Of a stretch of DNA of 64,000 bases, positions 6,095 through 21,837 are shown one piece after another (position 1 is the stretch's first letter; each line of letters begins with the position of its first letter). Location of the stretch: positions 868,001-932,000 of the forward strand of contig NZ_JACHMP010000001.1 in NCBI RefSeq assembly GCF_014204985.1. Reading direction: 5' to 3'. Below the pieces are notes generated by a model, which saw only the letters and a list, made by a program, of their open reading frames with translations, did not search any database and had not been told where the DNA came from. This stretch comes from Streptosporangium becharense. Its GTDB lineage: Bacteria; Actinomycetota; Actinomycetes; Streptosporangiales; Streptosporangiaceae. A program made the translations under genes and the position numbers.

Positions 6095-7123
6095 TCAGGC
6101 GTCGTACGGCGGGGCCGTCGACCGGCGGACGATCAGCTCGATGGGGCCGTCCAGGACCTCCTCGACGCTCTCGTCCGGCCTGAGGCCGCCGAGCAGGGCC
6201 ACCCCCCTCCTGCCGAGCTCCTCCAGGGGCATCCGGACGCTGGTGAGGGGCGGGGCCAGGTAGCTGGCGAGGTCGAGATCGTGCACGGCGACCATGGAGA
6301 TCTGGCGGGGGATCTCCAGCCCGGCCGCCCGGACCGTGTCCATCGCGCCGATGGCGGAGGCGACGTTGGCGACGAAGACCGCGGTGGGCGGTTCGGGGGC
6401 GGCGAGCAGCGCGGCCATCGCGGCGGCGCCGCCCGCGGGGGTGTAGTCGGCCGCGACGACCGGGCCGACGGGCAGGCCCGCGTCGCGCATCGCCGCGGAG
6501 TACCCCGCCGAGCGGCGCAGCGCGGTGTCGGCGCCGACGGGCCCGGCGAGATGGGCGACGCGCCGGTGCCCGAGCCCCACCAGGTGCTCGACGGCGAGCC
6601 TGGCCGCGCGCTCGTCGTCGAGGATCACGTAACGCTTGACCGAGGGGCTCCTGCGGTTGAGCATGACCCACGGCACGGTGGTCCGGTCGAGCTGCTCGAT
6701 CAGCCCGGCCTCGTCCTCGGCCCCGGCCAGGAGCAGGCCGTCGATGCGGCCCTGCCCGAGCAGGTCCATGTAGCCGCCGAGACCCGCCCCGGTGGAGCTG
6801 CCGGTGACGAGCACGTAGCCGAGCGCCGCGGCGGCGGCCTCGGCACCCTTGATGATCTCCGCGTAGACGGGGTTGGCGAAGTCGGGGATGAACAGGCCGA
6901 ACATGTGAGCGCGGGCCGTGCGCAGGCTCCGCGCCGCCACGTTGGGCCGGTACCCGAGTTCGGCGACCGCGGCGAGGACCCGCTGCCTGGTCTCGGGCCG
7001 GATGTTCAGCGAGGGGTCGTTGTTGACGACGCGCGACACCACGGCCCGGTCGACCTTGGCCGCCGCCGCGACGTGGGCCAGGGTGACGCGGACCGGCCTG
7101 CCCCCGGTCGCCTGCCGGGTCAT
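6095..7123 (-). CDS. LacI-family transcriptional regulator of the catabolic locus
   Basis: A 342-residue LacI-type repressor. The N-terminal helix-turn-helix (VTLAHVAAAAKVDRAVVSRV, about residues 13-32) and hinge helix (PNVAARSLRT) precede a periplasmic-binding-protein-like effector domain from about residue 73. It is the last gene of the minus-strand operon, and its ATG overlaps the oxidoreductase stop by 4 bases. Twelve-base palindromes with a central CG, typical of LacI operators, precede each unit of the locus at 9070, 13429 and 17544. It is therefore the obvious regulator of the whole region. The inducer is probably the transported substrate or a breakdown product. Confidence 0.93.
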   Translation of the reverse strand: MTRQATGGRPVRVTLAHVAAAAKVDRAVVSRVVNNDPSLNIRPETRQRVLAAVAELGYRPNVAARSLRTARAHMFGLFIPDFANPVYAEIIKGAEAAAAALGYVLVTGSSTGAGLGGYMDLLGQGRIDGLLLAGAEDEAGLIEQLDRTTVPWVMLNRRSPSVKRYVILDDERAARLAVEHLVGLGHRRVAHLAGPVGADTALRRSAGYSAAMRDAGLPVGPVVAADYTPAGGAAAMAALLAAPEPPTAVFVANVASAIGAMDTVRAAGLEIPRQISMVAVHDLDLASYLAPPLTSVRMPLEELGRRGVALLGGLRPDESVEEVLDGPIELIVRRSTAPPYDA

Positions 7124-8205
7124 CCCTCCCCCAGCCGTGAACTCTCCCCGGTCTCCATGGAACGGTAGAGAGCGTGGAGCAGGGCGAGGGTGCCGAGGTT
7201 GTCGGCGCCCGACGTCTCCGGCTCTCCACCCTCGGCGACCGCCGCGAGCAGGGACCCCATGGGGCCGGCGACCGCGTCGGGCAGCCAGCGGGTGGTCACC
7301 GGGTAGGGCAGCCAGCCGTCGGTCGGCAGGGTGCGGCTGTTGACCTGGAGGGTGTCGGGGCGGCCGTGCGGGTAGTCGTACAGCAGGCCGAGGGTGCCCT
7401 TGATCGCCCCCTCCGTCCCGTCGATCCGGAAGGCGGCCTCGTAGTCGCCGGTGCGGTTCTCGTGCGTCACGTGGACCAGCGCCCGCACGTCGCCCGGGTA
7501 GACCAGGGTGCTCATGGTGCGGGTCTCCCCCTTGGGGAGCTGGCCGGGCGTGCGGCTGCCGGTGCAGAAGACGGTCACCGGGTCGCCGAGGATCGACCGG
7601 ATCGCGTCCAGGTAGTGGATCGAGTGGTAGACGATCTCCAGGCGGTCGGTGGAGACCAGCCAGTCCCAGGCGCTCCAGTCGGTGGCGATGTTCACGGTGA
7701 ACGTCATCGTCGTCGGCTCACCGATCCAGCCGGCCCGGACCATGGCGCGGGCGGCGGCGATGCCCTCGTCGAAGCGGAGCTGCTGGTTGACGGCGATCTT
7801 CAGCCCGTGGGCGGCGGCCAGCTCGACCAGCTCGCGGCCGGTCGCGACGTCGGGGGCGAAGGGCTTCTGGCACAGCACGTGCCGGCCGGCCGCGAGGACC
7901 TCCCGCGCGATTCCGGGCTGGGCCTGCGGCGCGACGGCGATGTCGACCACGGCGACCCGGTCGTCGGCGAGCAGCTCCGCGAGGGAGCCGTACACCCTCC
8001 CGACGCCGTGCCGGGCGGCCACCTCACGTGCCCGCCCTTCGTCCAGGTCGTACAGCCCGGCGACGTGGAGCCCGGCCGCGCGGTAGGCGGGCAGGTGGGC
8101 GACGTCGACGATGGCGCCCGCCCCGACCACCGCGATCGGGAGCCGGTGCTCCGCGGGGATGGTCAGGTCGGCGGCGGCGGCGATCGGAGCGAGCAGGTCG
8201 AGCAC
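7120..8205 (-). CDS. Gfo/Idh/MocA-family NAD(P)-dependent oxidoreductase
   Basis: A 361-residue sugar-dehydrogenase-like protein. The Rossmann fold shows GAGAIV at about residues 28-33. The usual EKP motif is present as QKPFAP, and the C-terminal alpha/beta domain has YHSIHYLDAIR, where the family places its catalytic histidine. Relatives oxidise sugars, inositols or sugar acids, often giving a lactone. It sits three bases after a lactonase-type hydrolase and overlaps the LacI gene, so sugar-to-lactone oxidation followed by hydrolysis is plausible (inference). The exact substrate cannot be read from the sequence. Confidence 0.85.
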   Translation of the reverse strand: MLDLLAPIAAAADLTIPAEHRLPIAVVGAGAIVDVAHLPAYRAAGLHVAGLYDLDEGRAREVAARHGVGRVYGSLAELLADDRVAVVDIAVAPQAQPGIAREVLAAGRHVLCQKPFAPDVATGRELVELAAAHGLKIAVNQQLRFDEGIAAARAMVRAGWIGEPTTMTFTVNIATDWSAWDWLVSTDRLEIVYHSIHYLDAIRSILGDPVTVFCTGSRTPGQLPKGETRTMSTLVYPGDVRALVHVTHENRTGDYEAAFRIDGTEGAIKGTLGLLYDYPHGRPDTLQVNSRTLPTDGWLPYPVTTRWLPDAVAGPMGSLLAAVAEGGEPETSGADNLGTLALLHALYRSMETGESSRLGEG

Positions 8206-8208
8206 GGG

Positions 8209-9051
8209 TCAGACCTCGATCCCGTAGAAGCGGGCGGCGGTGCCGCCGAGGATCGCGGCCCGGTCGGCCTCGCCGAGGCCCGCCAGCAGCACCCCGGTCT
8301 CCTTCCACACCTTGGCGTAGTCGCCCGCGAGGATCGCCACCGGCCAGTCGCTGCCGAACATCAGCCGGTCGGGACCGAAGACCTCCAGCGCGTGCTCGAC
8401 GTACGGCCGCAGGTCCTCGGCGGTCCAGGTGCCGGGGTCGGCGGCGGTGTTGAGGCCGGAGAGCTTGGCGTGGACGTTGGGGTGCTCGGCGGCGCGGGCG
8501 ATCAGCGACGCCCACGGCTCCCACCCCCTCTCCCTGATCGGCGGCTTGGCCAGGTGGTCGATCACCAGTCGCAGGCCGGGCACGCGCTCGGCGAGGACGG
8601 GCACGTGCTCCAGGTGCCGGGGCAGCACCGCGACCACGTCGAAGGGCAGCCCCGCCTCGGCGAGCAGGCCGAGGCCCTCGATCACCGAGTCCTGGACCAC
8701 CCAGTCGGGGTCGGGGTCGTCGTGGATGAGGTGCCTGACCCCGGCGAAGGCGGGGTGCCGCCGGTAGCGTTCCAGGGCCTCGGCGGCCTCGGCCGGGCGG
8801 TTCAGCGGCACCCAGCCGACCACGGCGGCGACGACGTCGTAGGTGTCGGCCTGCGCCAGCATCGCGTCGGTGTCGGCGTAGGTGTCGGCGGCCTGGACCA
8901 GCACGGTCCGCTCGACGCCGGCCGCGGCGAGCTGCGGGAGGAGCTCCTCGGGCTCGAAGGTGCGGTGGATGGGCCCGGCCTCGGGCGTCAGCCAGGGGTA
9001 GGAACCCGTCTGGAGGTTCCAGAAATGCTGGTGGGCGTCGATCACGGCCAT
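8209..9051 (-). CDS. COG3618-type amidohydrolase / sugar lactonase
   Basis: A 280-residue TIM-barrel metal hydrolase. It begins VIDAHQHFW, the HxH metal motif and following Trp of the family that includes L-fuconolactonase, L-rhamnonolactonase and 2-pyrone-4,6-dicarboxylate lactonase. Other expected residues are His in LVIDHLAKPP, Lys in HAKLSG and Asp in MFGSDWPV. It is first in its operon, with a good AAGGAGG site. A TTGACA-N17-TAGTTT promoter lies upstream with a LacI-type operator just after the -10. Lactone hydrolysis is the most likely chemistry. Confidence 0.85.
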   Translation of the reverse strand: MAVIDAHQHFWNLQTGSYPWLTPEAGPIHRTFEPEELLPQLAAAGVERTVLVQAADTYADTDAMLAQADTYDVVAAVVGWVPLNRPAEAAEALERYRRHPAFAGVRHLIHDDPDPDWVVQDSVIEGLGLLAEAGLPFDVVAVLPRHLEHVPVLAERVPGLRLVIDHLAKPPIRERGWEPWASLIARAAEHPNVHAKLSGLNTAADPGTWTAEDLRPYVEHALEVFGPDRLMFGSDWPVAILAGDYAKVWKETGVLLAGLGEADRAAILGGTAARFYGIEV

Positions 9052-9069
9052 CCGCGCCTCCTTCTTCGA

Positions 9070-9081
9070 TCAATCGTTTGA
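9070..9081. promoter_or_regulatory. LacI-type operator O1
   Basis: TCAATCGTTTGA, a near-perfect palindrome with central CG, 18 bases before the hydrolase start and directly downstream of the predicted -10. It is the reverse complement of the copies at 13429 and 17544. Confidence 0.8.
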
Positions 9082-9089
9082 GCCTGCAC

Positions 9090-9118
9090 AAACTAGGACG
9101 ACCCCGCGGGGGTGTCAA
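9090..9118 (-). promoter_or_regulatory. Promoter of the lactonase-oxidoreductase-lacI operon
   Basis: On the minus strand, TTGACA (9118-9113), a 17-base spacer and TAGTTT (9095-9090). Operator O1 covers the expected transcription start, so repressor binding would block initiation. Confidence 0.7.
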
Positions 9119-9165
9119 CGCCGCCGGCGGCCCGCTCCGGCCCTGGTGGAGCGCGACCGGCCGGG

Positions 9166-9624
9166 TCAGCGTGACGGCGGCTGGACCAGCTCCAGGGTGA
9201 TCTCGTCGGGGTCGAGGAAGTAGCAGGCGAAGCCGCCCGCGTTGATCCCGGCGGTGATCTCGTTGGGCGGCGAGACGAAGCGCACCCCGGCCGCCGTCAG
9301 CCTCGCGTGCTCGGCGCGCGCGTCCTCGACGGTGAGCGCCAGGTGGGCGGCGCCCGGCAGGTGCCGGGAGGGGTCGCGGGCCTCGCCGCGCGGGACGACG
9401 TACTCGACGAGCTCCAGGTCGTGGGTGGAGACCCCGCGCGGCTGGCCGGGTACGGCGAGCTGCGCGATGCGCAGGACGGCGTCGGGGTAGCCGACGAGCC
9501 TGCGGGTGTAGTCGTTGTCCTGGTCCTGCCGGTGCACGAGCGTGAAGCCGAGCAGGTCCCGGTAGAAGGCCACGGACCGGTCGAGGTCGGCGACGGTGAA
9601 GGAGAAGTGCCAGACGCCTCTCAT
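9166..9624 (-). CDS. VOC-family (glyoxalase/dioxygenase fold) protein
   Basis: A 152-residue protein with two beta-alpha-beta-beta-beta modules. It begins VWHFSFTVADLDRSVAFYRDL, with a probable metal-binding His, and has AAHLALTVEDARAEHARL in the second half and a C-terminal Glu in ITLELVQP. Such proteins are metal-dependent lyases, isomerases, epimerases or ring-cleaving dioxygenases. The ATG overlaps the permease stop (ATGA), so it is cotranslated with the importer and probably acts early on the imported compound (inference). The exact reaction is unknown. Confidence 0.85.
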   Translation of the reverse strand: MRGVWHFSFTVADLDRSVAFYRDLLGFTLVHRQDQDNDYTRRLVGYPDAVLRIAQLAVPGQPRGVSTHDLELVEYVVPRGEARDPSRHLPGAAHLALTVEDARAEHARLTAAGVRFVSPPNEITAGINAGGFACYFLDPDEITLELVQPPSR

Positions 9625-10922
9625 CGCAGTGCCTCCTGCTTTCCCGCCTGCTCCGGTTCCGGCGCCGCCTGCGGCGGCTGGGGTGTCTGTGACTCGCGCA
9701 CCCGGCGGACCTGCCGTTGCCGGCCGGCGATGGTGTAGATGGCGGCGGCCACGATGACCACGGTGCCGACGATCAGGCCCTGGTAGTTGGCGCCAAGGTT
9801 GAGCACGTTGAACCCGTTGTCCAGGGTGAACAGGATGAGCGCGCCGACGACGGACTTCAGCACGCTGCCGAGACCGCCGAACAGGGATGTGCCGCCGAGG
9901 ATGGCGGCGGCGAGCACGGTCAGCTCGGTGCCCTGCAGGCCGGTCGGGTTGATGGCGAGCAGCTTGGCGGCGAACAGCACGCCGACGAAGCCGGAGCCGA
10001 GGCCGTTGAGCACGAACGCGCCGATCTTGTAGCGGTCGACGTTGATGCCGGCCAGGCGGGCGGCCTCCGCGTTGCTGCCGACCGCGTACAGGCGGCGGCC
10101 GATCACGGTGTAGCGCAGCACGGCCCAGGTGATCGCGACGATCACCAGCAGGTAGTAGGTGGGCTTGCTCAGCCGCAGCTCGAAGCCGAGCACGGGGCTG
10201 AGCGCGAGGAGGACCACGCCGGCCGCCGCGACGACGGCGCCGCGCAGCGGGCTGCCGCCGGACCGGCGGGCCAGCAGGGCGAGCACGGCCCCGGTGACCA
10301 GGGCGGCCACCCCGGCGACCGCCAGGATGTGCGGGATCGTCCAGTAGCCGGCCTGCAGCGCGATCAGCGCCTGCTGGGCCTCGGGGTCCTTGGCGGTGAT
10401 CGTGCGGCCGTCGGTGACGATGAGCACCAGGCCGCGCACGGCCGTCATGGTGCCCAAGGTGACGATGAAGGCGTTGATGCCGACCCGCTGGACGATCACG
10501 CCGTTGACCGCGCCGCACACCAGGCCGGCGCCCAGCGCGATCGCCATGGCCAGCGGCAGCCCGAGCGAGCTGACCAGGCTGAGCACGGTGGCCGCGGAGA
10601 AGGCGGAGACCGAGGCGACCGACAGGTCGAAGTTCCCGCTGATCAGCACCACCGTGGTGAACACCGCGAGGATGGCCACCAGCGACGACTGGTCGAGGAT
10701 GTTGGTGATGTTGGTCGCGGACAGGTAGTTCGGCCTGCCCAGCTGGGCCGAGAGCAGCGTCAGCACGGTGACGATCAGTATGAGGGCGTAGACCACGCCC
10801 GCGTTGCCGGGCCGCAGCGCGGCGGTCAGCCGCGAGCGCCGCGCGGCCGCGGCGCCGGCACCGGCGGGTGTCCGGGCGGCCGGGGCGCCGGTGGCGGGGT
10901 TCTCAGGCGGCACCCTGCGCAC
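9621..10922 (-). CDS. Ribose-type ABC importer permease
   Basis: A 433-residue integral membrane protein of the RbsC/BPD_transp_2 family with about ten hydrophobic segments. The motif GRRLYAVGSNAEAARLAGI is typical of RbsC-type permeases and contacts the ATPase. It starts with GTG inside the ATPase gene (20-base overlap) and overlaps the VOC gene. The first 35 residues are an Ala/Pro-rich cytoplasmic extension. Together with the ATPase and lipoprotein it makes a complete carbohydrate uptake system. Confidence 0.92.
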   Translation of the reverse strand: MRRVPPENPATGAPAARTPAGAGAAAARRSRLTAALRPGNAGVVYALILIVTVLTLLSAQLGRPNYLSATNITNILDQSSLVAILAVFTTVVLISGNFDLSVASVSAFSAATVLSLVSSLGLPLAMAIALGAGLVCGAVNGVIVQRVGINAFIVTLGTMTAVRGLVLIVTDGRTITAKDPEAQQALIALQAGYWTIPHILAVAGVAALVTGAVLALLARRSGGSPLRGAVVAAAGVVLLALSPVLGFELRLSKPTYYLLVIVAITWAVLRYTVIGRRLYAVGSNAEAARLAGINVDRYKIGAFVLNGLGSGFVGVLFAAKLLAINPTGLQGTELTVLAAAILGGTSLFGGLGSVLKSVVGALILFTLDNGFNVLNLGANYQGLIVGTVVIVAAAIYTIAGRQRQVRRVRESQTPQPPQAAPEPEQAGKQEALR

Positions 10923-12420
10923 CTCCCTCGCCGAATCCGTTGGCCAGCATCAGCAGTTCCTCCTCGGATGTCTCGTGCGCCGGTCGTTCGGCGACGATCC
11001 GGCCCTCGCGGACGACGAACACTCGGGTCGCCACCGCGAGGATCTCCTCGAACTCGCTGCTCGCCACGAGCACGGCGCCGCCCTGGGCGGCGAACCGGCG
11101 GACGAGTTCGAGGATGTCGGCCTTGGCGCCGACGTCGACCCCGGCCGTGGGCTCGTCGAGCATGAAGACCCGGGTCCCGCCGTGCAGCCACTTGCCGAAG
11201 ACGACCTTCTGCGCGTTGCCGCCGGACAGTTCGGTGACCATGGCCTCGGGGCCGGGGCAGACGATGCCGAGGTCGGCGATGACCCGTTCGGCGCGCTCGG
11301 CCTCGGCGCGTTCCCTCGGCAGGGCCCGGCCCGACGCCAGGGACGGCAGGTCGGGCAGGGAGATGTTCTTCCAGATGGGGAAGGTGCCGATCAGGCCCTG
11401 GGCGTTGCGGTCCTCGGGGACCAGGGCCATCCCGGCGGCGACCGCGGCGCGGGGGGTGCGCCGTACCGCCTCGCCGTCGACCAGCACCTCGCCCCGGGCG
11501 CGGGCGTCGGCGCCGTAGACCGCGTGCAGGATCTCCGAACGGCCGGAGCCGAGCAGGCCGGCGAAGCCGACGACCTCGCCGGCGCGCACCTCGAAGGAGA
11601 CGTCCCGCACGCCCGCCGGGGAGCGCAGGTCCCGCACGGTGAGCAGCACGGGGGCGGCGGCGTCGACCGGCGGGGCCGTGCGGCGCTCCACGGCGAGCAG
11701 GTCCCGGCCGACGATCGCCTGCACCAGGCGGTCCTCGTCGTAGGAGGCCGTCTCCCCCTCCTCGACGACCGTGCCGTCGCGCAGGACGGTCACCCGGTCG
11801 GTGAGGGAGAGCACCTCGTCGAGGAAGTGCGAGACGTACAGGAACGCGGTGCCCTGCGCGCTGAGCCGCCTGACCACGTCGAAGACGACCCGGCGCTCGC
11901 CCTCGGCGAGGGAGGCGGTCGGCTCGTCCATCACGACGAGTTCGGCGCCGGTGGCCAGGGCCTGGAGGATGGCGACCATCTGCCGTTCGCCGATGGCCAG
12001 GTCCATCACCTCGGCGTCGGGGTCGATGTCGTAGTTGACGCGCTCCAGCAGCCGGGCGAACTCGGCGCGGCGTGCGCGCGGCAGCCGCCACGGGCCCCGG
12101 GAGCCGAGGAAGACGTTCTCCAGCACGGTGAGGGTCGGCGCGAGCGGCACGTGCTGCATGATCGTCGCCACGCCCGCGTCGCGGGCGGCCCCGGGGGTCC
12201 GCCAGACGACCTCCTCGCCCTTCCACCGCACGGTGCCGGTCGTCGGCGCGTGCGCTCCGGCGATGACCTTGATCATCGTGGACTTCCCGGCGCCGTTGGC
12301 GCCCACCAGGCCGTGCACGCTGCCGGGCAGCACGTTCAACCGCGCACCCCGGAGGGCGACGGTGCCGTTGGGGAACGACTTGCCGACGCCTTCCAGGGAG
12401 AGCAGCGGGGTGGTCACCAT
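10903..12420 (-). CDS. Ribose-type ABC importer ATPase (two nucleotide-binding domains)
   Basis: A 505-residue RbsA-like protein with two fused ATPase domains. The first has Walker A GANGAGKST, signature LAIGERQMVAI and Walker B LVVMDEPTASL. The second has the usual altered P-loop (GLLGSGRSE), signature LSGGNAQKVVFGKWL and VFMLDEPTAGVD. The ATG overlaps the binding-protein stop by 7 bases. It powers import by the adjacent permease. The degenerate second P-loop is normal for this family. Confidence 0.93.
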   Translation of the reverse strand: MVTTPLLSLEGVGKSFPNGTVALRGARLNVLPGSVHGLVGANGAGKSTMIKVIAGAHAPTTGTVRWKGEEVVWRTPGAARDAGVATIMQHVPLAPTLTVLENVFLGSRGPWRLPRARRAEFARLLERVNYDIDPDAEVMDLAIGERQMVAILQALATGAELVVMDEPTASLAEGERRVVFDVVRRLSAQGTAFLYVSHFLDEVLSLTDRVTVLRDGTVVEEGETASYDEDRLVQAIVGRDLLAVERRTAPPVDAAAPVLLTVRDLRSPAGVRDVSFEVRAGEVVGFAGLLGSGRSEILHAVYGADARARGEVLVDGEAVRRTPRAAVAAGMALVPEDRNAQGLIGTFPIWKNISLPDLPSLASGRALPRERAEAERAERVIADLGIVCPGPEAMVTELSGGNAQKVVFGKWLHGGTRVFMLDEPTAGVDVGAKADILELVRRFAAQGGAVLVASSEFEEILAVATRVFVVREGRIVAERPAHETSEEELLMLANGFGEGGAQGAA

Positions 12421-13406
12421 TGCGGGGTGCACTCGGTGACGTTCTCCTTCGTGATCGACGGGGTGTCGTAGGTCACAAAGGCGGCGTCCTGCTTCTGCTC
12501 GCCGGTCAGGTGCTTGTAGAGGGTGGTGAGGGCGAGCTTGCCGAGGTCCTCGGGCTTGAAGCAGACCGTGCCGGCCACGTCGCCCGCGTTGATCGCGTCG
12601 ATGCCGAGCTTGCTGCCCCCGATGCCGATGACCTTGGCCTTGGAGCCGGCGGCCTTGACGGCCTTGGCGCAGCCGACCGACATGTCGTCGGACTGGGCGT
12701 AGAACAGCTCCACTCCGGGGTTGGACGCCAGCATGTTCTGGCAGGCCGACTGGGCCTTGTCCTGCACCCAGTCGCCGGGCTGCCTGGCCACGACCTCGAA
12801 CTTCGCCCCCTTGGCCTCGGCCGACTTGGGGAACTCCTGCCAGCGGTTGACGACCTCGGCGAAGCCGGCCGCACCCTCCACGATGGCGATCTTGCCGCCG
12901 CCGGGCAGGACCTGGGCGGCGATCTCGCCGGCCTTGCCGCCGGCGGCGTACTCGTCCTGGGTGACCAGGGCGACCAGCCCGGGGTAGACGTCCTTGAGCT
13001 GGCGGGTCTTGGGGTCTCCGACCTGGGAGGCCACCGCGACGGTGGGGATGCCCGCGGCCTTGAGCTTGTCGGCCAGGCCCTGCGCGACGCCGGAGTCGAC
13101 CGGCAGGATCAGCACGCCGTCCGGCTGCTGGGCCATCAGGTCCTGGACGTCGTTGCTCTGCTTGTCGGCCTTGCCCTGCGCGTCCAGCTCGACGATCGTG
13201 ACGCCGAGCTTGGCGGCCTCGTCCTTGATGCCCTTGCCGATGGCGGCGGGGAAGGGGAAGCTCAGCCCGAGGTTGGAGACACCGATCGTGTACTGCTTCT
13301 TCCCGCTCTCCTGCGCGGCGCCGTCGGTGCCGGCGGAGCCGGTGGAGCTCGCGCAGGCGGTCGCGCCGACTGCGAGGGCAGCCATCGCGAAGATTGCCTT
13401 CTTCAT
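12414..13406 (-). CDS. Sugar-binding lipoprotein of the ABC importer
   Basis: A 330-residue periplasmic-binding protein of the ribose/autoinducer type. A short signal peptide ends in a lipobox with Cys18 (VGATAC), so the mature protein is membrane-anchored outside the cell. Two Rossmann-like lobes follow, with IGVSNLGLSFPFPAAIGKG at the start and QQPDGVLILPVDSG in the first lobe. A strong AGGAGAAAC site precedes the ATG. It is first in the transport operon and has operator O2 22 bases upstream. Ligand unknown; a sugar, polyol or related small molecule is expected. Confidence 0.92.
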   Translation of the reverse strand: MKKAIFAMAALAVGATACASSTGSAGTDGAAQESGKKQYTIGVSNLGLSFPFPAAIGKGIKDEAAKLGVTIVELDAQGKADKQSNDVQDLMAQQPDGVLILPVDSGVAQGLADKLKAAGIPTVAVASQVGDPKTRQLKDVYPGLVALVTQDEYAAGGKAGEIAAQVLPGGGKIAIVEGAAGFAEVVNRWQEFPKSAEAKGAKFEVVARQPGDWVQDKAQSACQNMLASNPGVELFYAQSDDMSVGCAKAVKAAGSKAKVIGIGGSKLGIDAINAGDVAGTVCFKPEDLGKLALTTLYKHLTGEQKQDAAFVTYDTPSITKENVTECTPQW

Positions 13407-13428
13407 TGTTTCTCCTGGTCACACATGA

Positions 13429-13440
13429 TCAAACGATTGA
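13429..13440. promoter_or_regulatory. LacI-type operator O2
   Basis: TCAAACGATTGA, identical to the copy at 17544, lies 22 bases before the binding-lipoprotein start in the 75-base gap after the E1-beta gene. It implies a separate regulated promoter for the importer. A small ATGG/CCAT hairpin followed by Ts on the minus strand (13459-13442) may partly end the upstream transcript. Confidence 0.78.
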
Positions 13441-13481
13441 CTAAAAAATGGTGATCCATACGCTGCCCGTCCGCGGGACCG

Positions 13482-14477
13482 CTAGCGCGCGCCGCCGCGG
13501 ACGAGCGTTCGCACCTCCCCCGCGATGCGATGGGCGTCCGGGACGAGCGCCTGCGCCAGGATCGGCGCGGCGGGCATCCGGACGTCCGGCGTGCCGATCC
13601 GGATCGGCGGCGCCTGCAACGGCACCCCCGCCCCGGCCACCCGGGCGACGACCTCGGCGCCGAAGCCGCCGGTGACGTTGGCCTCGTGGACCACCGCCAG
13701 CCTGCCGGTGCGGCGGACGCTCCCGACGACCGCGCCGGTGTCGAACGGGTTGAGCCAGGGCGTCTCGATCACCTCGACCCCGATGCCCTCCCCGGCCAGG
13801 GTCCGGGCGGCCTCCACCGCCCGCCAGGTCATCGCACCCCAGGTGACCACGGTGGCGTCGGAGCCCTCGTGACGGAGCCGCGAGCCGCCCGCCGGCGGCA
13901 CCGGGCCGCCGACGGTCACCTCCTGTTTGGCCCCGAAGTAGAGCGTCCTGTTCTCGACCACCAGGACCGGGTCGTCGCTGTGCACCGCCGCGACCAGCAG
14001 GTCGTGGGCGTCCTGCGGGGTGGACGGCATGCACACCCGCAGCCCGGGGACGTGCAGGAAGAGCGCCTCCAGGCACTGGGAGTGCTGCGCGCACGCACCC
14101 GGCCCGTTGCCCTGCTGGGTGCGGATCGTCAGCGGCGCGGTGAGCCGGCCGCCGGAGACGTAGCGGACGTTGGCCGCCTGGTTCACGATCTGGTCGAGCG
14201 CGACGAGTGAGAAGTCGGCCCACATGATCTCGACGATCGGGCGGCGGCCCATCATGGCGGCACCCACGGCGCTGCCGAGGATCGCCGACTCGCTGATCGG
14301 GGTGTCGAACACGCGCTCGCCGTACTGCTTGCGCAGGCCCCGGGTGACGCCGAAGACGCCGCCGGGCACGCCCACGTCCTCGCCGTAGACCAGGGTCTCC
14401 GGCAGTTCCTCCATCAGCCGGTGCAGCGCCGCGTTGACGGCCTCACCGTACGACAGCTTGCGGGTGGTCTCAGGCAT
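13482..14477 (-). CDS. 2-Oxoacid dehydrogenase E1 component, beta subunit
   Basis: A 331-residue protein of the transketolase-like pyrimidine-binding family. GEDVGVPGGVFGVTRGL carries the conserved acidic residue that activates thiamine diphosphate, and the C-terminal transketolase domain starts near residue 200. It overlaps the E1-alpha gene by 8 bases, so the pair should form an alpha2-beta2 enzyme of the acetoin/pyruvate/branched-chain type. No E2 acyltransferase or E3 reductase gene is nearby. The complex may borrow an E2/E3 or use another acceptor. Confidence 0.9.
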   Translation of the reverse strand: MPETTRKLSYGEAVNAALHRLMEELPETLVYGEDVGVPGGVFGVTRGLRKQYGERVFDTPISESAILGSAVGAAMMGRRPIVEIMWADFSLVALDQIVNQAANVRYVSGGRLTAPLTIRTQQGNGPGACAQHSQCLEALFLHVPGLRVCMPSTPQDAHDLLVAAVHSDDPVLVVENRTLYFGAKQEVTVGGPVPPAGGSRLRHEGSDATVVTWGAMTWRAVEAARTLAGEGIGVEVIETPWLNPFDTGAVVGSVRRTGRLAVVHEANVTGGFGAEVVARVAGAGVPLQAPPIRIGTPDVRMPAAPILAQALVPDAHRIAGEVRTLVRGGAR

Positions 14478-15417
14478 ACAGGTGCTCCATGACGGTCGCG
14501 GGGTCGGCGAGCGGGGCGGCCAGCGCGGCCGCGGCGGCGGCCTCGGTCTCGGTCCTGGCCCGGGTCTCCACCGCGTCGATCTCGGCGGCCGGGACGCCGT
14601 CGGCGAGCAGCCCCTCGCGCAGCCGCGCGATCGGCTCCCGGCGCAGGATCCGCTCCATCTCGCCGGGCTGCCGGTAGGCCTCGGCGTCGCCGATGTAGTG
14701 GCCGACGATGCGTTCCGTCATGCACTCCAGCAGGGTCGGGCCGCCGCCCTCGCGGGCGACCTCCACCGCGTCGCGCACGTGGAAGCGGACCGACTCGGCG
14801 TCGTTGCCGTCGATGCGGTAGCCGGGCATGCCGTAGGCGGCGGCCCGGTCGGCCAGCCGCCCGCCCCGGACCATGTCGGCGATCGGGGTCAGCTCCGAGT
14901 AGCGGTTGTTCTCGCAGACGAAGACCACCGGCAGGTCGAAGGCCGCGGCGAAGTTCATCGCCTCGTGGACCGCACCCTGGTTCATCGCGCCGTCACCGAA
15001 GACGGTCACCGCCACCCGGTTGGAGCCGTCGTGGCGACCGGCGAGCGCCGCGCCGCACGCGATCGGGGCACCGGCGCCCACGATGGAGTTCTCGCCGTGG
15101 AAGCCGTACTCGGCGGCGGTGAAGTAGGCCGAGCCGCCCCGGCCGCCGTTGACGCCGGTGGCGCGGCCCAGCAGTTCGGCGAAGAGCGGCTCGGCGGGCA
15201 CGCCGCGGGCGAGCGCCCAGCCGTGGCCCCGGTAGGTCGCGAACAGCGCGTCCTCGGGCTCCAGGGCGTCGCAGGCGCCGACCGGGATGGCCTCCTGCCC
15301 GATGCACAGGTGGACCGAGCCGACGATCGGCCCCTCAAGGCGCAGCTGGCGCACCTTCTCCTCGAAGGCGCGGATGCGCCACATGGCCAGCAGGTCCGCG
15401 AGCCGTCGCTCACTCAT
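14470..15417 (-). CDS. 2-Oxoacid dehydrogenase E1 component, alpha subunit
   Basis: A 315-residue thiamine-diphosphate-binding subunit. The cofactor motif runs from FGDGAMNQGAVHEAMN to CENNRYS, and GGRGGSAYF and FHGENSIVGAGAPIACG are present as in acetoin dehydrogenase and pyruvate dehydrogenase E1-alpha. The start at 15417 overlaps the lyase stop by 8 bases; the longer reading frame upstream lies inside the lyase gene. With the beta subunit it should decarboxylate a 2-oxoacid or cleave an alpha-hydroxyketone. The substrate is unknown. Confidence 0.9.
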   Translation of the reverse strand: MSERRLADLLAMWRIRAFEEKVRQLRLEGPIVGSVHLCIGQEAIPVGACDALEPEDALFATYRGHGWALARGVPAEPLFAELLGRATGVNGGRGGSAYFTAAEYGFHGENSIVGAGAPIACGAALAGRHDGSNRVAVTVFGDGAMNQGAVHEAMNFAAAFDLPVVFVCENNRYSELTPIADMVRGGRLADRAAAYGMPGYRIDGNDAESVRFHVRDAVEVAREGGGPTLLECMTERIVGHYIGDAEAYRQPGEMERILRREPIARLREGLLADGVPAAEIDAVETRARTETEAAAAAALAAPLADPATVMEHLYA

Positions 15418-16759
15418 TGTCGTTCTCCTCCGTCCGCCACGCCGCGAGCGCGACGGCACAGATCGTCTCGGCGTCGCCGATGTAGGACTCGGGGGGAAGC
15501 GGGAGCGGCCCGAGGCTCGCGAGGTCGTCGGGCCCGGCCACCTCCCGCAGGGTGTCGGCGAGCGCGCGGCGGTCCGCCCGCGCCCGGTGGGCGGCCTGGT
15601 AGACGAGGTCGTGCGCCTGCTCGCGGCCCAGCGCGGGGGCCAGGCGCATCATGTACGCCTCCGCCATGATCAGCCCGCCCTCGGCGTCGAGGTTGCCGCG
15701 CATCGCCTCGGGGAAGACCTGGAGTCCCACGGCGACCTCGGCGGCGGTGACCAGGGCACCGGCGGCGAGTTCGGCGAGCTGCGGCACCACGTACCACTCC
15801 ACCTGCCACTCGCCCGCGGCCCGCTCGTGGCCGGCCTCCATCGCCCGGAACACCGCCGAGCTGAGGGCGCCCGCCGTGCCGGACATGCCGATGATCGCCT
15901 CGCAGCCGATCGGGTTGGCCTTCTGCGGCATCGTGGAGGACGCCCCGCGGTGGTGGCCGCCGGCCTCGCGGACCTCGCCGACCTCGGTCCTGGACAGGTC
16001 GACGACCTCCCGGGCGAACCTGGCGGCGGTCGCCGCGACGCTCGCGCAGGCGACGCCGAACTCGGCGATCCCGTCCCTGGCCACGTGCCAGGGCACGTCC
16101 GTCTGGACGAGCCCGAGCCGGGTGGCGACGCCCTTCCTGACCACCGCGGCCTGCTCGCCCATGGCGGCGGAGGTTCCTCCGGCGCCGAAGAGGGAGACGG
16201 CCGGGACGTGCCGCAGCGCGTCGCGCAGCCGCCGCCGCTGGCGGGTGACCTCGGCCAGCAGCACGGCCAGCTTCGCGCCGAACGTGGTGGGGACGGCCTG
16301 CTGGGCGTGGGTGCGCGCGGCCACCACGGTGCCCGCGTGCTCCTCGACCAGGCGGGCGAGGGCGTCGCCGAAGGACTCCAGCAGGACGACCAGGCGCTCC
16401 AGCGCCTCCCTCATCTGCAGGGACAGGCCGCTGTCCATGATGTCCTGCGTGGTCGCGCCGTAGTGGACGCGGCCGTTGGGCCCCTCGGGCAACGCGGCGG
16501 CGATCATCCGCACCAGCGGGAGGATGGGGTAGCCCACGTTCACGGCCTCCCGCCACAGGCGGTCGAGGTCGATGGTGGCGGGCACGCACGCGGCGGCGAT
16601 GGCCTCGGCGTCGCTCTCGTCGATCACTCCGGCCTCGGCCTGGGCCAGGGCGAGGGCGGCCTCGACCCGCAGCCAGGAGAGCACGGTGCTCTCGGCGGAG
16701 AAGATCCCGGCCATCCCGGCGTCGCCGAAGAGGGCGGGGAGCAGCTTGAAGGTCTGCAC
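15410..16759 (-). CDS. Fumarase/aspartase-superfamily lyase (PurB/PcaB-like)
   Basis: A 449-residue helical lyase. The superfamily signature GASSTMPQKANPIG is intact near residues 270-285. HYGATTQDIMDSG and HAQQAVPTTFG, the other two conserved regions, are also present. Its closest look is to 3-carboxy-cis,cis-muconate cycloisomerase and adenylosuccinate lyase-like proteins rather than true PurB of purine synthesis. A GTG start at 16759 lies two bases after the SDR stop and gives the usual family length. It should eliminate or cycloisomerise a succinyl- or carboxylate-containing intermediate of this pathway (inference). Confidence 0.85.
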   Translation of the reverse strand: MQTFKLLPALFGDAGMAGIFSAESTVLSWLRVEAALALAQAEAGVIDESDAEAIAAACVPATIDLDRLWREAVNVGYPILPLVRMIAAALPEGPNGRVHYGATTQDIMDSGLSLQMREALERLVVLLESFGDALARLVEEHAGTVVAARTHAQQAVPTTFGAKLAVLLAEVTRQRRRLRDALRHVPAVSLFGAGGTSAAMGEQAAVVRKGVATRLGLVQTDVPWHVARDGIAEFGVACASVAATAARFAREVVDLSRTEVGEVREAGGHHRGASSTMPQKANPIGCEAIIGMSGTAGALSSAVFRAMEAGHERAAGEWQVEWYVVPQLAELAAGALVTAAEVAVGLQVFPEAMRGNLDAEGGLIMAEAYMMRLAPALGREQAHDLVYQAAHRARADRRALADTLREVAGPDDLASLGPLPLPPESYIGDAETICAVALAAWRTEENDNE

Positions 16760-16761
16760 GG

Positions 16762-17520
16762 TCAGTTCATCTCCAGTCCGCCGTCGACGTTCAGCGCCTG
16801 GCCGGTGATGAACGAGGCGAGGTCGCTGGCGAGGAAGAGGACGGCGGCGGCGAGTTCCTCGGCGCGGCCGGGACGCCGGAGCGGGGAGCGTCCGCTGACC
16901 TCCTGGAGGTAGTTCGCCCCGGCGTCCGGGCCGAAGCGGGCGTCGCGGTCGGCGATGATCTCCTCCCACATGGGGGTGAGGAAGATCCCCGGGCAGACCG
17001 CGTTGACCCGTACCGGGGCGAGCGCCTCGGCGGCCGACTTCGTCAGCGACAGCAGCGCGGTCTTGGTCGCCGAGTAGTGCGCGGCGTTGGGCCGCCCGGA
17101 CCTGGCCGCGACGGAGGCGAGGGTCACGATCGATCCGCCGCCCTGCTCGACCATGCGGCGGCCGACCGCCTGGGTGATCCAGAAGGAGCCGTTGAGGTTG
17201 ACGTCGATGATCCGGCGCCACTCCTGCGGGGTCACCTCCAGCAGGGGCGTGGTGCGCATGACGCCGGCGCAGTTCACCAGGATGTCGATGCGGCCGATCT
17301 CCTCGGCCAGGGCCACCGCCTGCTCGGGGTCGGTGAGGTCGGCGGCCCGGTCGCGTGCCCCCAGGGCGGTCGCGGCCTCGGTCAGCCGCGGTCCCTCCAG
17401 GTCGGAGACGACGAGATCGGCACCGGCGTCGGCCAGCGCGCGGGCACATGCGAGCCCGAGCCCTCCCGCGGCCCCGGTGACGAGCGCCGTACGCCCCGCC
17501 AGGTCGATCGTGACAGCCAT
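16762..17520 (-). CDS. Short-chain dehydrogenase/reductase
   Basis: A 252-residue classical SDR. It has cofactor motif TGAAGGLG near residues 12-19, NCAGV, and the catalytic Ser and YSATK. It ends FITGQALNVDGG, typical of sugar-alcohol and 3-oxoacyl dehydrogenases. The ATG at 17520 is chosen because the longer frame would start at a TTG inside operator O3. It is first in the SDR-lyase-E1 operon. It probably oxidises a hydroxyl group of the imported compound. Confidence 0.9.
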   Translation of the reverse strand: MAVTIDLAGRTALVTGAAGGLGLACARALADAGADLVVSDLEGPRLTEAATALGARDRAADLTDPEQAVALAEEIGRIDILVNCAGVMRTTPLLEVTPQEWRRIIDVNLNGSFWITQAVGRRMVEQGGGSIVTLASVAARSGRPNAAHYSATKTALLSLTKSAAEALAPVRVNAVCPGIFLTPMWEEIIADRDARFGPDAGANYLQEVSGRSPLRRPGRAEELAAAVLFLASDLASFITGQALNVDGGLEMN

Positions 17521-17543
17521 CCCCGGTGTTCCCCCTCGGTAGG

Positions 17544-17555
17544 TCAAACGATTGA
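17544..17555. promoter_or_regulatory. LacI-type operator O3
   Basis: TCAAACGATTGA, within the wider GTCAAACGATTGAC, 23 bases before the SDR start and just downstream of the predicted -10. Confidence 0.8.
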
Positions 17556-17560
17556 CTGGG

Positions 17561-17590
17561 AATGTAGCAGCGTGCTCACAAAGCGGACAA
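17561..17590 (-). promoter_or_regulatory. Promoter of the SDR-lyase-E1 operon
   Basis: On the minus strand, TTGTCC (17590-17585), an 18-base spacer and TACATT (17566-17561). Operators O3 and O4 lie on either side, about 55 bases apart centre to centre, an arrangement suited to repression by a bivalent LacI protein. Confidence 0.65.
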
Positions 17591-17598
17591 GAGGTCGG

Positions 17599-17610
17599 TC
17601 AATCGTTTTT
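17599..17610. promoter_or_regulatory. LacI-type auxiliary operator O4
   Basis: TCAATCGTTTTT matches the consensus TCAA(T/A)CG(A/T)TTGA at 10 of 12 positions. It sits just upstream of the -35 of the SDR promoter. Confidence 0.6.
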
Positions 17611-19800: not shown

Positions 19801-21837
19801 ATGAGACCTTCCATCCGAGCGCGCTCGCTGGCCGGTGCGCTCGTGGCCGGGTTACTGCTCAGCCTTCCGGTGACGTCACCCGCCGCCGCGGCACCGACCC
19901 GGTACGAGGCGGAGAACGCCACCATCTCCCAGGGCACCGTGGACACCAGGCACGCCGGGTTCACCGGGACGGGCTTCGTCGACTACGCCAACGTCGCCGG
20001 CTCCCACGTCGAGTTCACCGTCAACGCGGCGACCGCCGGCAACTACCGTCTGGCGTTCCGTTTCGCCAACGGCACCACCACGGACCGGCCGATGGACATC
20101 TCCGTCAACGGCACGACGGTCTCGGCCGGACTGTCCTTCCCCGGCACCGGTGCGTGGACCACCTGGGTGGAGAAGTCGGTCACCGCGGGTCTCATCGCGG
20201 GCGCCAACAAGGTCCGCGCCACCGCCACCACCGCGAACGGCGGCCCCAACCTCGACCGGCTGAGCGCGTCCGCCCCCGCCGACACCCAACCGCCGACCGC
20301 CCCGGCCGGCCTGCGCGTCGTCGGCGAGATCAGGCCCACCTCCGTGGGCCTGGCCTGGAACGCGTCCACCGACGACGTCGGCGTCTCCCAGTACAGGATC
20401 TACAACGGCGGGAACGTGCTCGTCACCGTGGGCGGCAACATCACGAGCCTCACGGTGCCCGGTCTGACACCCAACACGCGGTACGTGTTCAGCGTGCTGG
20501 CCTACGACGCCGCGGGCAACCCCTCCCAGGGCAGCAACAGCGTCGACCTCACCACACCGCCGGGCGGCGACACCACGCCGCCGAGCACGCCCGCCGGCCT
20601 GCACGCCACCGGCGTCACGGCGAACACCGTCACGCTGGGCTGGAACGCCTCGACCGACGACGTCGGCGTGACCGGCTACAACGTCTACCGCGACGGCACG
20701 AGGATCGCCACGGTGCCGGACCTCACCGCGACCGTGGACGGGCTGACGCCCGACACGGCCTACTCCTTCGAGGTCGAGGCGTTCGACGCCGACGACAACG
20801 TCTCGCCCCGCACCGCACCGCTGCCGGTGAGGACGACCGGTACCGCGGGCGGCGGCGACCCCGTCTACGACCGGGACGTCACCAAGCTCGACCTGGCGTG
20901 GGGCGTCACGTTCCTGCCGGACGACAGCGCGCTGGTCGCCGAGCGCGACCGGTTCGAAATCGTACGGGTCACCCCGAACGGGCAGAAGACGGTGGTCGGC
21001 AAGATCACCGAGGCGACGACCACCGGCGGCGAGGGCGGCCTCCTCGGCCTGGCCGCCTCCCCGAACTTCGCCGCCGACCGCTACGTCTATGCCTTCCACA
21101 CGGCCTCGTCCGACAACCGGGTCGTCCGGTTCAAGTACGAGAACGGGCGGATCGGCGCTCGCGAGCCGATCGTCACCGGCATAGCCAAGAACCGGTTCCA
21201 CAACGGTGGGCAGATCAAGTTCGGCCCCGACGGCTACCTGTACATCACCACCGGTGACGGCCAGGACGGCAACCGGGCACAGAACCTCGGCTCGCTCAAC
21301 GGCAAGATCCTGCGCGTGACGCCGACGGGCGCCGGCGCCCCGGGCAACCCGTTCCCGAACGCGCCGCGCGTCTACTCCCTGGGGCACCGCAATCCGCAGG
21401 GCATCGCCTGGGACTCCAGGGGACAGCTGTGGGAGTCCGAGTTCGGCAACAGCACCTGGGACGAGCTCAACCTGATCCAGCCGGGCAAGAACTACGGTTG
21501 GCCCAACTGCGAGGGCAGGTGCGACAACACGGCCTACGTCAACCCGGTCCGGCAGTGGGATGTGGCTTCCGCCTCGCCGAGCGGCATCGAGATCGTGAAC
21601 GACTGGATCTACATGGCGGCGGTCCGCGGCCAGCGGCTCTGGGTCATGAGGATCGACGGCAGCACGACCGACACGCCCAGGGCGTTCTTCAGCGGCCGGT
21701 GGGGCCGCCTGCGCACGGTCGTCAGGACGCCCGACGGCGGGCTCTGGCTGACCTCCACCAACAATGACAAGAACGGCGGCACGCCGTCGGTGCTCGACAA
21801 CGTGATCGTGCGGCTGAAGTTCGCCCCGCCGGCGTGA
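19801..21837 (+). CDS. Secreted CBM-FN3-FN3-PQQ-dependent sugar dehydrogenase
   Basis: A 678-residue exported protein. Residues 1 to about 31 are a signal peptide ending SPAAAA. A carbohydrate-binding module of the CBM6/35 type (YEAENATISQG ... GFTGTGFVDYAN) spans about 35-155. Two fibronectin type III domains follow at about 165-255 and 260-345. A six-bladed glucose/sorbosone dehydrogenase domain covers about 355-675, with WGVTFLPDDSALVAERD, FHNGGQIKFGPDGYLYITTGD and GHRNPQGIAWD. It probably oxidises sugars at a polysaccharide surface and may feed electrons to partner oxidases. AGGAGAA precedes the ATG. A strong terminator follows. Confidence 0.88.
   Translation: MRPSIRARSLAGALVAGLLLSLPVTSPAAAAPTRYEAENATISQGTVDTRHAGFTGTGFVDYANVAGSHVEFTVNAATAGNYRLAFRFANGTTTDRPMDISVNGTTVSAGLSFPGTGAWTTWVEKSVTAGLIAGANKVRATATTANGGPNLDRLSASAPADTQPPTAPAGLRVVGEIRPTSVGLAWNASTDDVGVSQYRIYNGGNVLVTVGGNITSLTVPGLTPNTRYVFSVLAYDAAGNPSQGSNSVDLTTPPGGDTTPPSTPAGLHATGVTANTVTLGWNASTDDVGVTGYNVYRDGTRIATVPDLTATVDGLTPDTAYSFEVEAFDADDNVSPRTAPLPVRTTGTAGGGDPVYDRDVTKLDLAWGVTFLPDDSALVAERDRFEIVRVTPNGQKTVVGKITEATTTGGEGGLLGLAASPNFAADRYVYAFHTASSDNRVVRFKYENGRIGAREPIVTGIAKNRFHNGGQIKFGPDGYLYITTGDGQDGNRAQNLGSLNGKILRVTPTGAGAPGNPFPNAPRVYSLGHRNPQGIAWDSRGQLWESEFGNSTWDELNLIQPGKNYGWPNCEGRCDNTAYVNPVRQWDVASASPSGIEIVNDWIYMAAVRGQRLWVMRIDGSTTDTPRAFFSGRWGRLRTVVRTPDGGLWLTSTNNDKNGGTPSVLDNVIVRLKFAPPA

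Follow-up and report, generated by a model that had tools for sequence, protein, structure and literature searches.

In the non-phosphorylative L-fucose pathway of Xanthomonas campestris, Burkholderia multivorans and Campylobacter jejuni, a dehydrogenase yields L-fuconolactone and a lactonase, of the COG3618 type in B. multivorans, opens it to the aldonate, and a 2026 review counts two characterised bacterial L-fucose pathways (both from excerpts of PMC13406643). A transketolase-type, thiamin pyrophosphate (TPP)-dependent cleavage of 5-ketogluconate between C4 and C5 to tartaric semialdehyde has also been discussed, with a mechanism that the excerpted text of PMC12016104 treats as unsettled and "enigmatic". 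We analysed a 64,000-nucleotide stretch of the Streptosporangium becharense genome (contig NZ_JACHMP010000001.1, positions 868,001 to 932,000; hereafter the window), which holds an eleven-gene catabolic locus with its own LacI-family repressor. The regulon is real and conserved; the chemistry rests on inference. Our tentative reading, as a whole somewhat less likely than not, is that the LacI-controlled genes oxidise a 6-deoxyhexose, L-fucose being the best candidate, by a non-phosphorylative route in which the six carbons would be split 2+4.

The locus, its operators and its recurrence in actinobacteria

The locus consists of eleven genes on the minus strand between positions 6095 and 17520, as determined from the open reading frames (ORFs) of the window by Pfam and NCBIfam profile searches. 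The Pfam search covered ten of the eleven proteins, each of which exceeded a gathering score, and the permease was searched against NCBIfam only. All the families named in an earlier sequence-only reading of this DNA were recognised in a single orientation, and its remark that kinase, aldolase and sugar-acid dehydratase families are missing was borne out for the eleven proteins in both databases. The genes form three blocks of overlapping or near-touching genes, the first encoding a short-chain dehydrogenase/reductase (SDR), a lyase and the E1-alpha and E1-beta subunits, the second a sugar-binding protein (SBP), an ATPase, a permease and a VOC protein, and the third a COG3618 protein, a Gfo/Idh/MocA dehydrogenase (Gfo) and LacI. 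Wider gaps separate the blocks, of 75 bp before the SBP gene and 114 bp before the COG3618 gene, each containing a predicted operator (Table 1).

The palindrome GTCAAWCGWTTGAC, common to the relatives, is located upstream of the first gene. Scanning the window for it returned three matches against 0.24 expected, and none of 100 shuffles reached as many. Across the 7.8-Mb genome there are exactly three copies of the 12-bp core, TCAAWCGWTTGA, all of them at the locus, and none of the backward-read control; at least one site with two or fewer mismatches was found in all 23 cassette loci scanned. These predicted sites are the palindromic operators expected of a local LacI regulon, and control of the locus by LacI is almost certain. 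Since the core occurs nowhere else in the genome, the dedicated regulon appears to comprise these eleven genes, in agreement with the earlier description of a self-contained LacI-controlled catabolic locus, and control of distant genes of this genome by the repressor was set aside on the same ground.

We looked for the lyase in 394 class genomes and in a named genome collection, of which the best 80 loci were used, so that the counts are lower bounds; cassette content was read by tblastn of the window proteins and by ORF reading. The core, defined as lyase, SDR, VOC, E1-alpha and E1-beta, was found in at least 22 actinobacterial genomes, and a complete set of eleven families recurred in 12 of the 22 (the window, L040, L043, L044, L045, L046, L048, L075, L079, L083, L108, and L073 with L166, in two blocks), with protein identities to the window proteins of about 42-94%. 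The co-occurrence of the eleven families exceeds chance. The core genomes are that of the window, G299, G131, three of one genus (one being Jiangella aurantiaca), Haloactinopolyspora alba, Nocardioides alkalitolerans, four Nonomuraea, Thermocatellispora, two Actinomadura, Actinoallomurus, Prauserella, Amycolatopsis, Kineosporia, two Paractinoplanes and one metagenome-assembled genome (MAG). For N. cypriaca (L085) and the MAG (L105), the SDR is truncated or lacking where the stretch ends, and both Paractinoplanes carry the cassette genes as two blocks on one contig. Loci L072, L090 and L094, on the same contigs as L048, L043 and L046, were counted once. Asanoa and Actinoplanes couchii were left out of the 22, as the stretch read contained only the lyase, the importer, Gfo and a solute-binding-type protein, plus a GH95-related gene in Asanoa. 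The cassette is uncommon, being present in 8 of the 394 genomes of the class sample; at E <= 1e-90, Gfo was found in one of 396 phylum-sample genomes, the window's own (five candidates scored per genome).

Prauserella (L080) carries lyase, SDR, VOC, E1-alpha, E1-beta and LacI together with a galactonate-type MFS transporter (best model TIGR00893, 284 bits vs a cut-off of 395). Gfo and the lactonase were not found in the stretch read, where the SDR stays with the core, and the genome gave no Gfo match at E <= 1e-30. Since the core persists there without them, Gfo and COG3618 would form the sugar-to-acid upper part and the remaining enzymes would act on the acid; SDR, lyase, VOC and E1 look like an acid-processing core.

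Table 1. Coordinates of the eleven genes and of the predicted operators in the window
Feature	Position	Strand	Remarks
SDR oxidoreductase	16762..17520	-	Pfam adh_short_C2; proposed C5 (or C4) dehydrogenase of the aldonate
Fumarase/ASL/PcaB-superfamily lyase	15410..16759	-	GTG start; Lyase_1 and ADSL_C; proposed dehydratase on a C4 acid
Thiamin-diphosphate E1-alpha subunit	14470..15417	-	PF00676, 242 bits
Thiamin-diphosphate E1-beta subunit	13482..14477	-	Transket_pyr (PF02779) and Transketolase_C (PF02780); 8-bp overlap with E1-alpha
CUT2 sugar-binding lipoprotein (SBP)	12414..13406	-	
CUT2 ATPase, two ABC domains	10903..12420	-	PF00005 in two stretches
CUT2 permease	9621..10922	-	AraH/GguB/RbsC-type NCBIfam matches, below cut-offs
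VOC protein, glyoxalase I / methylmalonyl-CoA epimerase-like	9166..9624	-	PF00903
COG3618 amidohydrolase (Amidohydro_2)	8209..9051	-	PF04909; proposed aldonolactonase
Gfo/Idh/MocA dehydrogenase	7120..8205	-	PF01408/PF22725; proposed aldose 1-dehydrogenase
LacI-family repressor	6095..7123	-	PF00356 and PF13377
Predicted LacI-type operator 1	17543..17556		0 mismatches; 23 bp before SDR
Predicted LacI-type operator 2	13428..13441		1 mismatch; 22 bp before SBP
Predicted LacI-type operator 3	9069..9082		2 mismatches, neither within the 12-bp core; 18 bp before COG3618

Near the cassette, at 19870-21837 on the plus strand, the window also encodes a protein with CBM35, fibronectin III and glucose/sorbosone dehydrogenase domains, and no operator core was found there.

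Candidate substrate and proposed upper half of the pathway

In the proposed upper half, the RbsABC-type proteins would import the sugar, Gfo would oxidise C1 to give a lactone and the COG3618 protein would open the lactone to a 6-deoxyaldonate. As a reaction type this oxidation and hydrolysis, already suggested by the sequence-only reading, is well supported by the enzyme families and quite probably correct. The best NCBIfam model for the COG3618 protein is L-fucono-1,5-lactonase, at 206 bits against an equivalog cut-off of 400, and its structure relative is 4dlf (E 3e-36); the protein is a homologue of this lactonase, judged by its sequence, and not a proven member. COG3618 was not found in the stretch read of Kineosporia, Asanoa, Actinoplanes, Paractinoplanes and two MAGs (L087, L105), and in these loci a solute-binding-type protein with no visible signal peptide adjoins Gfo. 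Such a protein, SBP_bac_1-like and divergent from Gfo, was observed in L105 (16447-17718) and also in L084, L087, L101, L109, L162 and L164, and is possibly a cytoplasmic enzyme or a sensor. A putative cyclase-family protein (PF04199, tested in L073) lies between VOC and LacI in L073 (4666-5562) and L087 (10462-11355) and might be another lactone- or amide-opening enzyme.

Evidence on the sugar comes mainly from the relatives. An L-rhamnose-mutarotase (rhaM) domain is present inside three cassettes, those of N. alkalitolerans, A. craniellae and Actinomadura KC345, where it is fused to VOC. Of 19 genomes tested, namely 17 core genomes together with Asanoa and A. couchii, 8 were found to encode a GH95-related enzyme, and an operator with at most two mismatches lies within 300 bp upstream of its gene in all eight, with no mismatch in G299, G394, G401 and G402; the expected rate per search window is 0.0026, estimated from 69 background loci of our choice (1.25 Mb). 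In G299, the sole exact operator besides that of the cassette is on another contig, before the GH95-related gene, whose product has a signal-peptide-like N-terminus by eye. Bit scores of 38.5 and 44.5, above the PF22124 gathering score of 27 and with partial coverage, were obtained for two of the eight proteins tested. The Actinomadura KC345 gene (L213) has one in-frame stop despite an exact operator upstream, due to either decay or an assembly error.

The substrate, left unidentified by the earlier reading, is narrowed to L-fucose or a close sugar by rhaM, the L-fucono-1,5-lactonase model (below its cut-off) and the operator-preceded GH95-related gene. On balance we expect a 6-deoxyhexose, and among 6-deoxyhexoses L-fucose appears the most likely first candidate. 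GH95 also includes L-galactosidases, and the same chemistry might act on L-galactose or another GH95-released sugar that keeps its C6 hydroxyl, E1 then releasing a glycolyl instead of an acetyl group. The operator before the GH95-related gene would also suit this alternative; rhaM and the fuconolactonase match favour a 6-deoxy sugar, and we regard L-galactose as unlikely.

Several observations weigh against L-fucose as the substrate. The rhaM domain was seen in only 3 of the 22 cassettes; the GH95 match is distant and weak and covers part of the model, the structure model of the enzyme is unusable (pLDDT 40) and the enzyme is absent from the window's own genome. The binding protein resembles RbsB-type and other sugar-binding proteins in structure comparisons, which gave no hint of the ligand, and it has lost the ribose-contact residues of RbsB with no recognisable sugar site gained. 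Proteins above the PF02952 fucose-isomerase cut-off occur in 7 of the 19 genomes tested. The four Jiangella/Haloactinopolyspora genomes with the GH95-related enzyme are all among these seven and may therefore have another L-fucose route; in the window's genome no PF02952 protein exceeded the cut-off. Moreover, the best PDB match of Gfo is 5uhw, which we take to be D-apiose dehydrogenase, and the two have a CQKPF motif in common. A D-apiose pathway would account for this match and for an apiosidase-like protein that Jiangella aurantiaca encodes divergently to its cassette. Such a gene was recognised beside that one cassette only, the later apiose enzymes (oxidoisomerase, RuBisCO-like proteins) are not among the eleven, and rhaM and the GH95-related gene do not fit, making D-apiose very unlikely.

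Proposed cleavage by E1 and proposed fate of the C4 product

The acetoin dehydrogenase complex (Aco) combines a two-subunit E1 with dedicated E2 and E3 components. In the proposed lower half, the SDR would oxidise the C5 hydroxyl of the aldonate to a 5-keto-6-deoxyaldonate, CH3-CO-CHOH-R, an analogue of acetoin. E1-alpha/beta would cleave its C4-C5 bond in the acetoin dehydrogenase manner, passing the acetyl group to a housekeeping E2 to give acetyl-CoA and releasing C1-C4 as a tetruronic semialdehyde. Along one branch, the lyase would dehydrate the C4 acid and VOC would convert the resulting 2-oxoaldehyde into malate by internal redox; along the other, an unlinked aldehyde dehydrogenase would form tartrate, which the lyase would turn into oxaloacetate. 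The evidence does not separate the malate branch from the tartrate/oxaloacetate branch. The net products would be acetyl-CoA and a C4 acid of the tricarboxylic acid (TCA) cycle, a 2+4 split as against the known 3+3. We infer the substrate, all reactions after the aldonate and the use of a host E2.

The two E1 subunits were confirmed as members of the PDH/acetoin superfamily (PF00676, PF02779, PF02780), with 297 bits for TIGR03182, below its cut-off of 394. In the Chloroflexi locus L115 the gene order is VOC-SDR-lyase, two other genes, E2 and E1-alpha, the E2 carrying lipoyl, E3-binding and acyltransferase domains, and in the Anaerolineae loci L119 and L120 the order E1-beta, E1-alpha, E2 is found near the lyase; this linkage supports a true dehydrogenase-complex E1. 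The window genome encodes three E2 catalytic domains, none near the locus. Acyloin cleavage was proposed because it gives the SDR, the lyase and VOC a role, and was not read from the sequence of E1; we consider it possible, with slightly more doubt than confidence. Directly after LacI, two Jiangella-type genomes (L063, 16596-17348; L066, 954-1718) encode a protein of 250 residues that matches no Pfam family other than the E3-binding domain and looks like a mini-E2 lacking a lipoyl or full acyltransferase domain. An acetolactate-synthase-type thiamin enzyme (by eye) lies 1.2 kb after a stand-alone lyase in L042 (12249-13418). An analogy with a riboflavin-type thiamin decarboxylase, described in an excerpt of PMC12746152, was considered and set aside.

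The lyase scored against Lyase_1 and its signature SSxMPxKxN is present in all 54 tree rows, placing it in the fumarase/argininosuccinate lyase superfamily; its PDB relatives are 3c8t, the trans-aconitate decarboxylase Tad1 and CMLE. It stayed below the equivalog cut-offs for PcaB, the 3-carboxymuconate cycloisomerase (TIGR02426, 286.8 vs 355.75; NF006554, 367.5 vs 595 bits). A PcaB-like lyase beside COG3618, together with a weak 4-sulfomuconolactone hydrolase match (18.8 bits), could recall aromatic or lactone catabolism of the PcaB/muconolactone or sulfomuconolactone type. Against this stand the CUT2 sugar importer and the Gfo protein of the locus, the rhaM domain and the hydrolase of the relatives, and the lack of a ring-cleavage dioxygenase among the eleven proteins in Pfam, and we find the explanation scarcely credible.

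The lyase clade comprises 43 tree rows, 24 from cassettes and 19 others. Six of the 19 lie beside a DASS anion symporter (L039, L074, L078, L082, L086, L098) and five beside an aldehyde dehydrogenase (L092, L095, L102, L103, L104); the other eight have neither neighbour or were not classified. Family membership was tested for three of the transporters (L074, L078, L082) and three of the dehydrogenases (L092, L102, L103), and the others were assigned by annotation, BLAST or eye. For the L102 and L103 dehydrogenases the closest family was succinate-semialdehyde dehydrogenase, at scores under the cut-off. DJ-1/PfpI proteins, three of them Pfam-tested, occur near the lyase in L092, L095, L098, L102, L103 and L104, and for one of them the best named NCBIfam model was glyoxalase III, below cut-off. 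Such neighbours would agree with a substrate resembling a C4 dicarboxylate and with reactive dicarbonyls as products.

In VOC, E71, H94 and E145 are present in all 12 rows and H6 in all but one, a row that is cut at its start; we take this H/E/H/E quartet to be the glyoxalase metal ligands. The nearest structures are glyoxalase I and methylmalonyl-CoA epimerase, and also FosA-type proteins. Within the cassettes read we recognised no gene for an aldehyde dehydrogenase, although a fragment of one is located 4 kb from the L087 cassette, and in L050, which has E1, lyase and an aldehyde dehydrogenase, VOC was not found. This suggests that VOC may stand in for the aldehyde dehydrogenase. The variant cluster of L050 (4433-19829; same family code as a Streptomyces griseoaurantiacus genome) encodes a sugar ABC importer, a distant lyase, E1-alpha and E1-beta and the aldehyde dehydrogenase, with amidohydrolase- and M24-type proteins recognised by eye. 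A gene of the AOR family (aldehyde:ferredoxin oxidoreductase) lies within 10 kb of seven cassettes (L040, L041, L073, L075 at 7289-9076, L077, L079 and L081), assigned by Pfam in L075 and by BLAST in the other six. It was rejected as the missing oxidation step, being absent from the window genome and preceded by no operator in the six loci scanned. Taken together, the lyase and VOC steps as we draw them are rather unlikely to be right in detail.

The cleavage proposal must also be set against unfavourable findings. The best PDB matches of E1-alpha are PDH E1 alpha subunits, the best NCBIfam models are PDH E1, below cut-off, and nothing in the E1 sequence singles out acyloins. The regulon contains no E2 or aldehyde dehydrogenase, and no dedicated lipoyl E2 or E3 was found in the window cassette. 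The E1-alpha tree places the cassette E1s near plasmid E1s (L152-L155), apart from the E2-linked Chloroflexi ones. The DASS- and dehydrogenase-linked lyases form a clade of their own (100/99), apart from the cassette lyases, so their substrates may differ, and carrying the C4-dicarboxylate clue over to the cassette would be an extrapolation; the idea that the two groups interleave, which would have pointed to a shared substrate for cassette and DASS-linked lyases, was rejected, as the tree shows no such mixing. The plasmid neighbourhoods gave no substrate clue. L152 (Microbacterium plasmid, E1-alpha) and L153 (Streptomyces plasmid, both subunits) show no E2 in their incomplete annotation, and zinc alcohol dehydrogenase, aminotransferase, IclR and acetoacetate-decarboxylase-family genes are their neighbours.

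The sequence-only reading had arranged the steps as lactone, acid, further oxidation, lyase cleavage and finally oxidative decarboxylation of a 2-oxoacid by E1. A concrete form would start from a branched sugar acid, aceric acid being one example: once C1 is oxidised and the lactone opened, the product would have a tartrate-like core for dehydration by the lyase, decarboxylation would lead to 4-hydroxy-2-oxopentanoate, and E1 with E2 would produce 3-hydroxybutyryl-CoA. Members of the fumarase-type superfamily classically act on succinate-type diacids, which suits this order, as do the trans-aconitate decarboxylase and CMLE relatives, the proximity of E1 to pyruvate dehydrogenase, the Chloroflexi E1 homologues beside a lipoyl E2 and a binding protein without the neutral-sugar ligands of RbsB. 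It leaves rhaM and the L-fuconolactonase-like enzyme unexplained, and near the cassettes read we recognised no enzyme known to release aceric acid, though no search aimed at one was made. We give this order a low probability. Of the two hypothetical orders we prefer acetoin-type E1 cleavage ahead of the lyase, since it accounts for more of the comparative findings.

Relation to known pathways

No described pathway with this gene set was found in our searches of open-licence papers, which is no proof of absence. The specific proposal of a third L-fucose pathway, combining a retro-acyloin split of 5-keto-L-fuconate, a fumarase-superfamily dehydratase and a glyoxalase-like redox step to yield acetyl-CoA and malate, is improbable in its entirety. 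If true, actinobacteria would split a common sugar 2+4, a pattern outside present pathway maps, and a 6-deoxyhexose would enter the TCA cycle with no kinase, aldolase or classical sugar-acid dehydratase. It would also imply new chemistry for three enzyme families: an E1 pair would cleave keto sugar acids, a fumarase-type enzyme would dehydrate sugar acids and a VOC protein would serve as a glyoxalase in sugar catabolism. Even with another sugar, the regulon is conserved and has a defined operator, hence the substrate is testable at once.

The locus resembles D-apiose catabolism in joining a Gfo/Idh/MocA aldose dehydrogenase to a sugar ABC importer and differs in that the specific later enzymes of that route are not among the eleven. 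With Aco it would have in common a two-subunit E1 cleaving CH3-CO-CHOH-R; unlike Aco, the window cassette has no dedicated E2/E3, the substrate would be a keto sugar acid and E1 is nearest to PDH models. The sugar 1-dehydrogenase and lactonase families predicted at the locus recall the non-phosphorylative L-fucose pathway. In contrast to the classical L-fucose pathway, there is no fuconate dehydratase (enolase- or IlvD-type), no FAH-type diketo-acid hydrolase among the eleven and no 2-keto-3-deoxyfuconate route; SDR, E1-alpha/beta, a fumarase-type lyase and VOC are found instead. Finally, TPP-dependent cleavage of a 5-ketoaldonate at C4-C5 would parallel the route from 5-ketogluconate through tartaric semialdehyde to tartrate in Gluconobacter and grape, as excerpted from PMC12016104; that route uses a transketolase and leads to a biosynthetic product, whereas the locus has an E1 pair and a presumed catabolic role.

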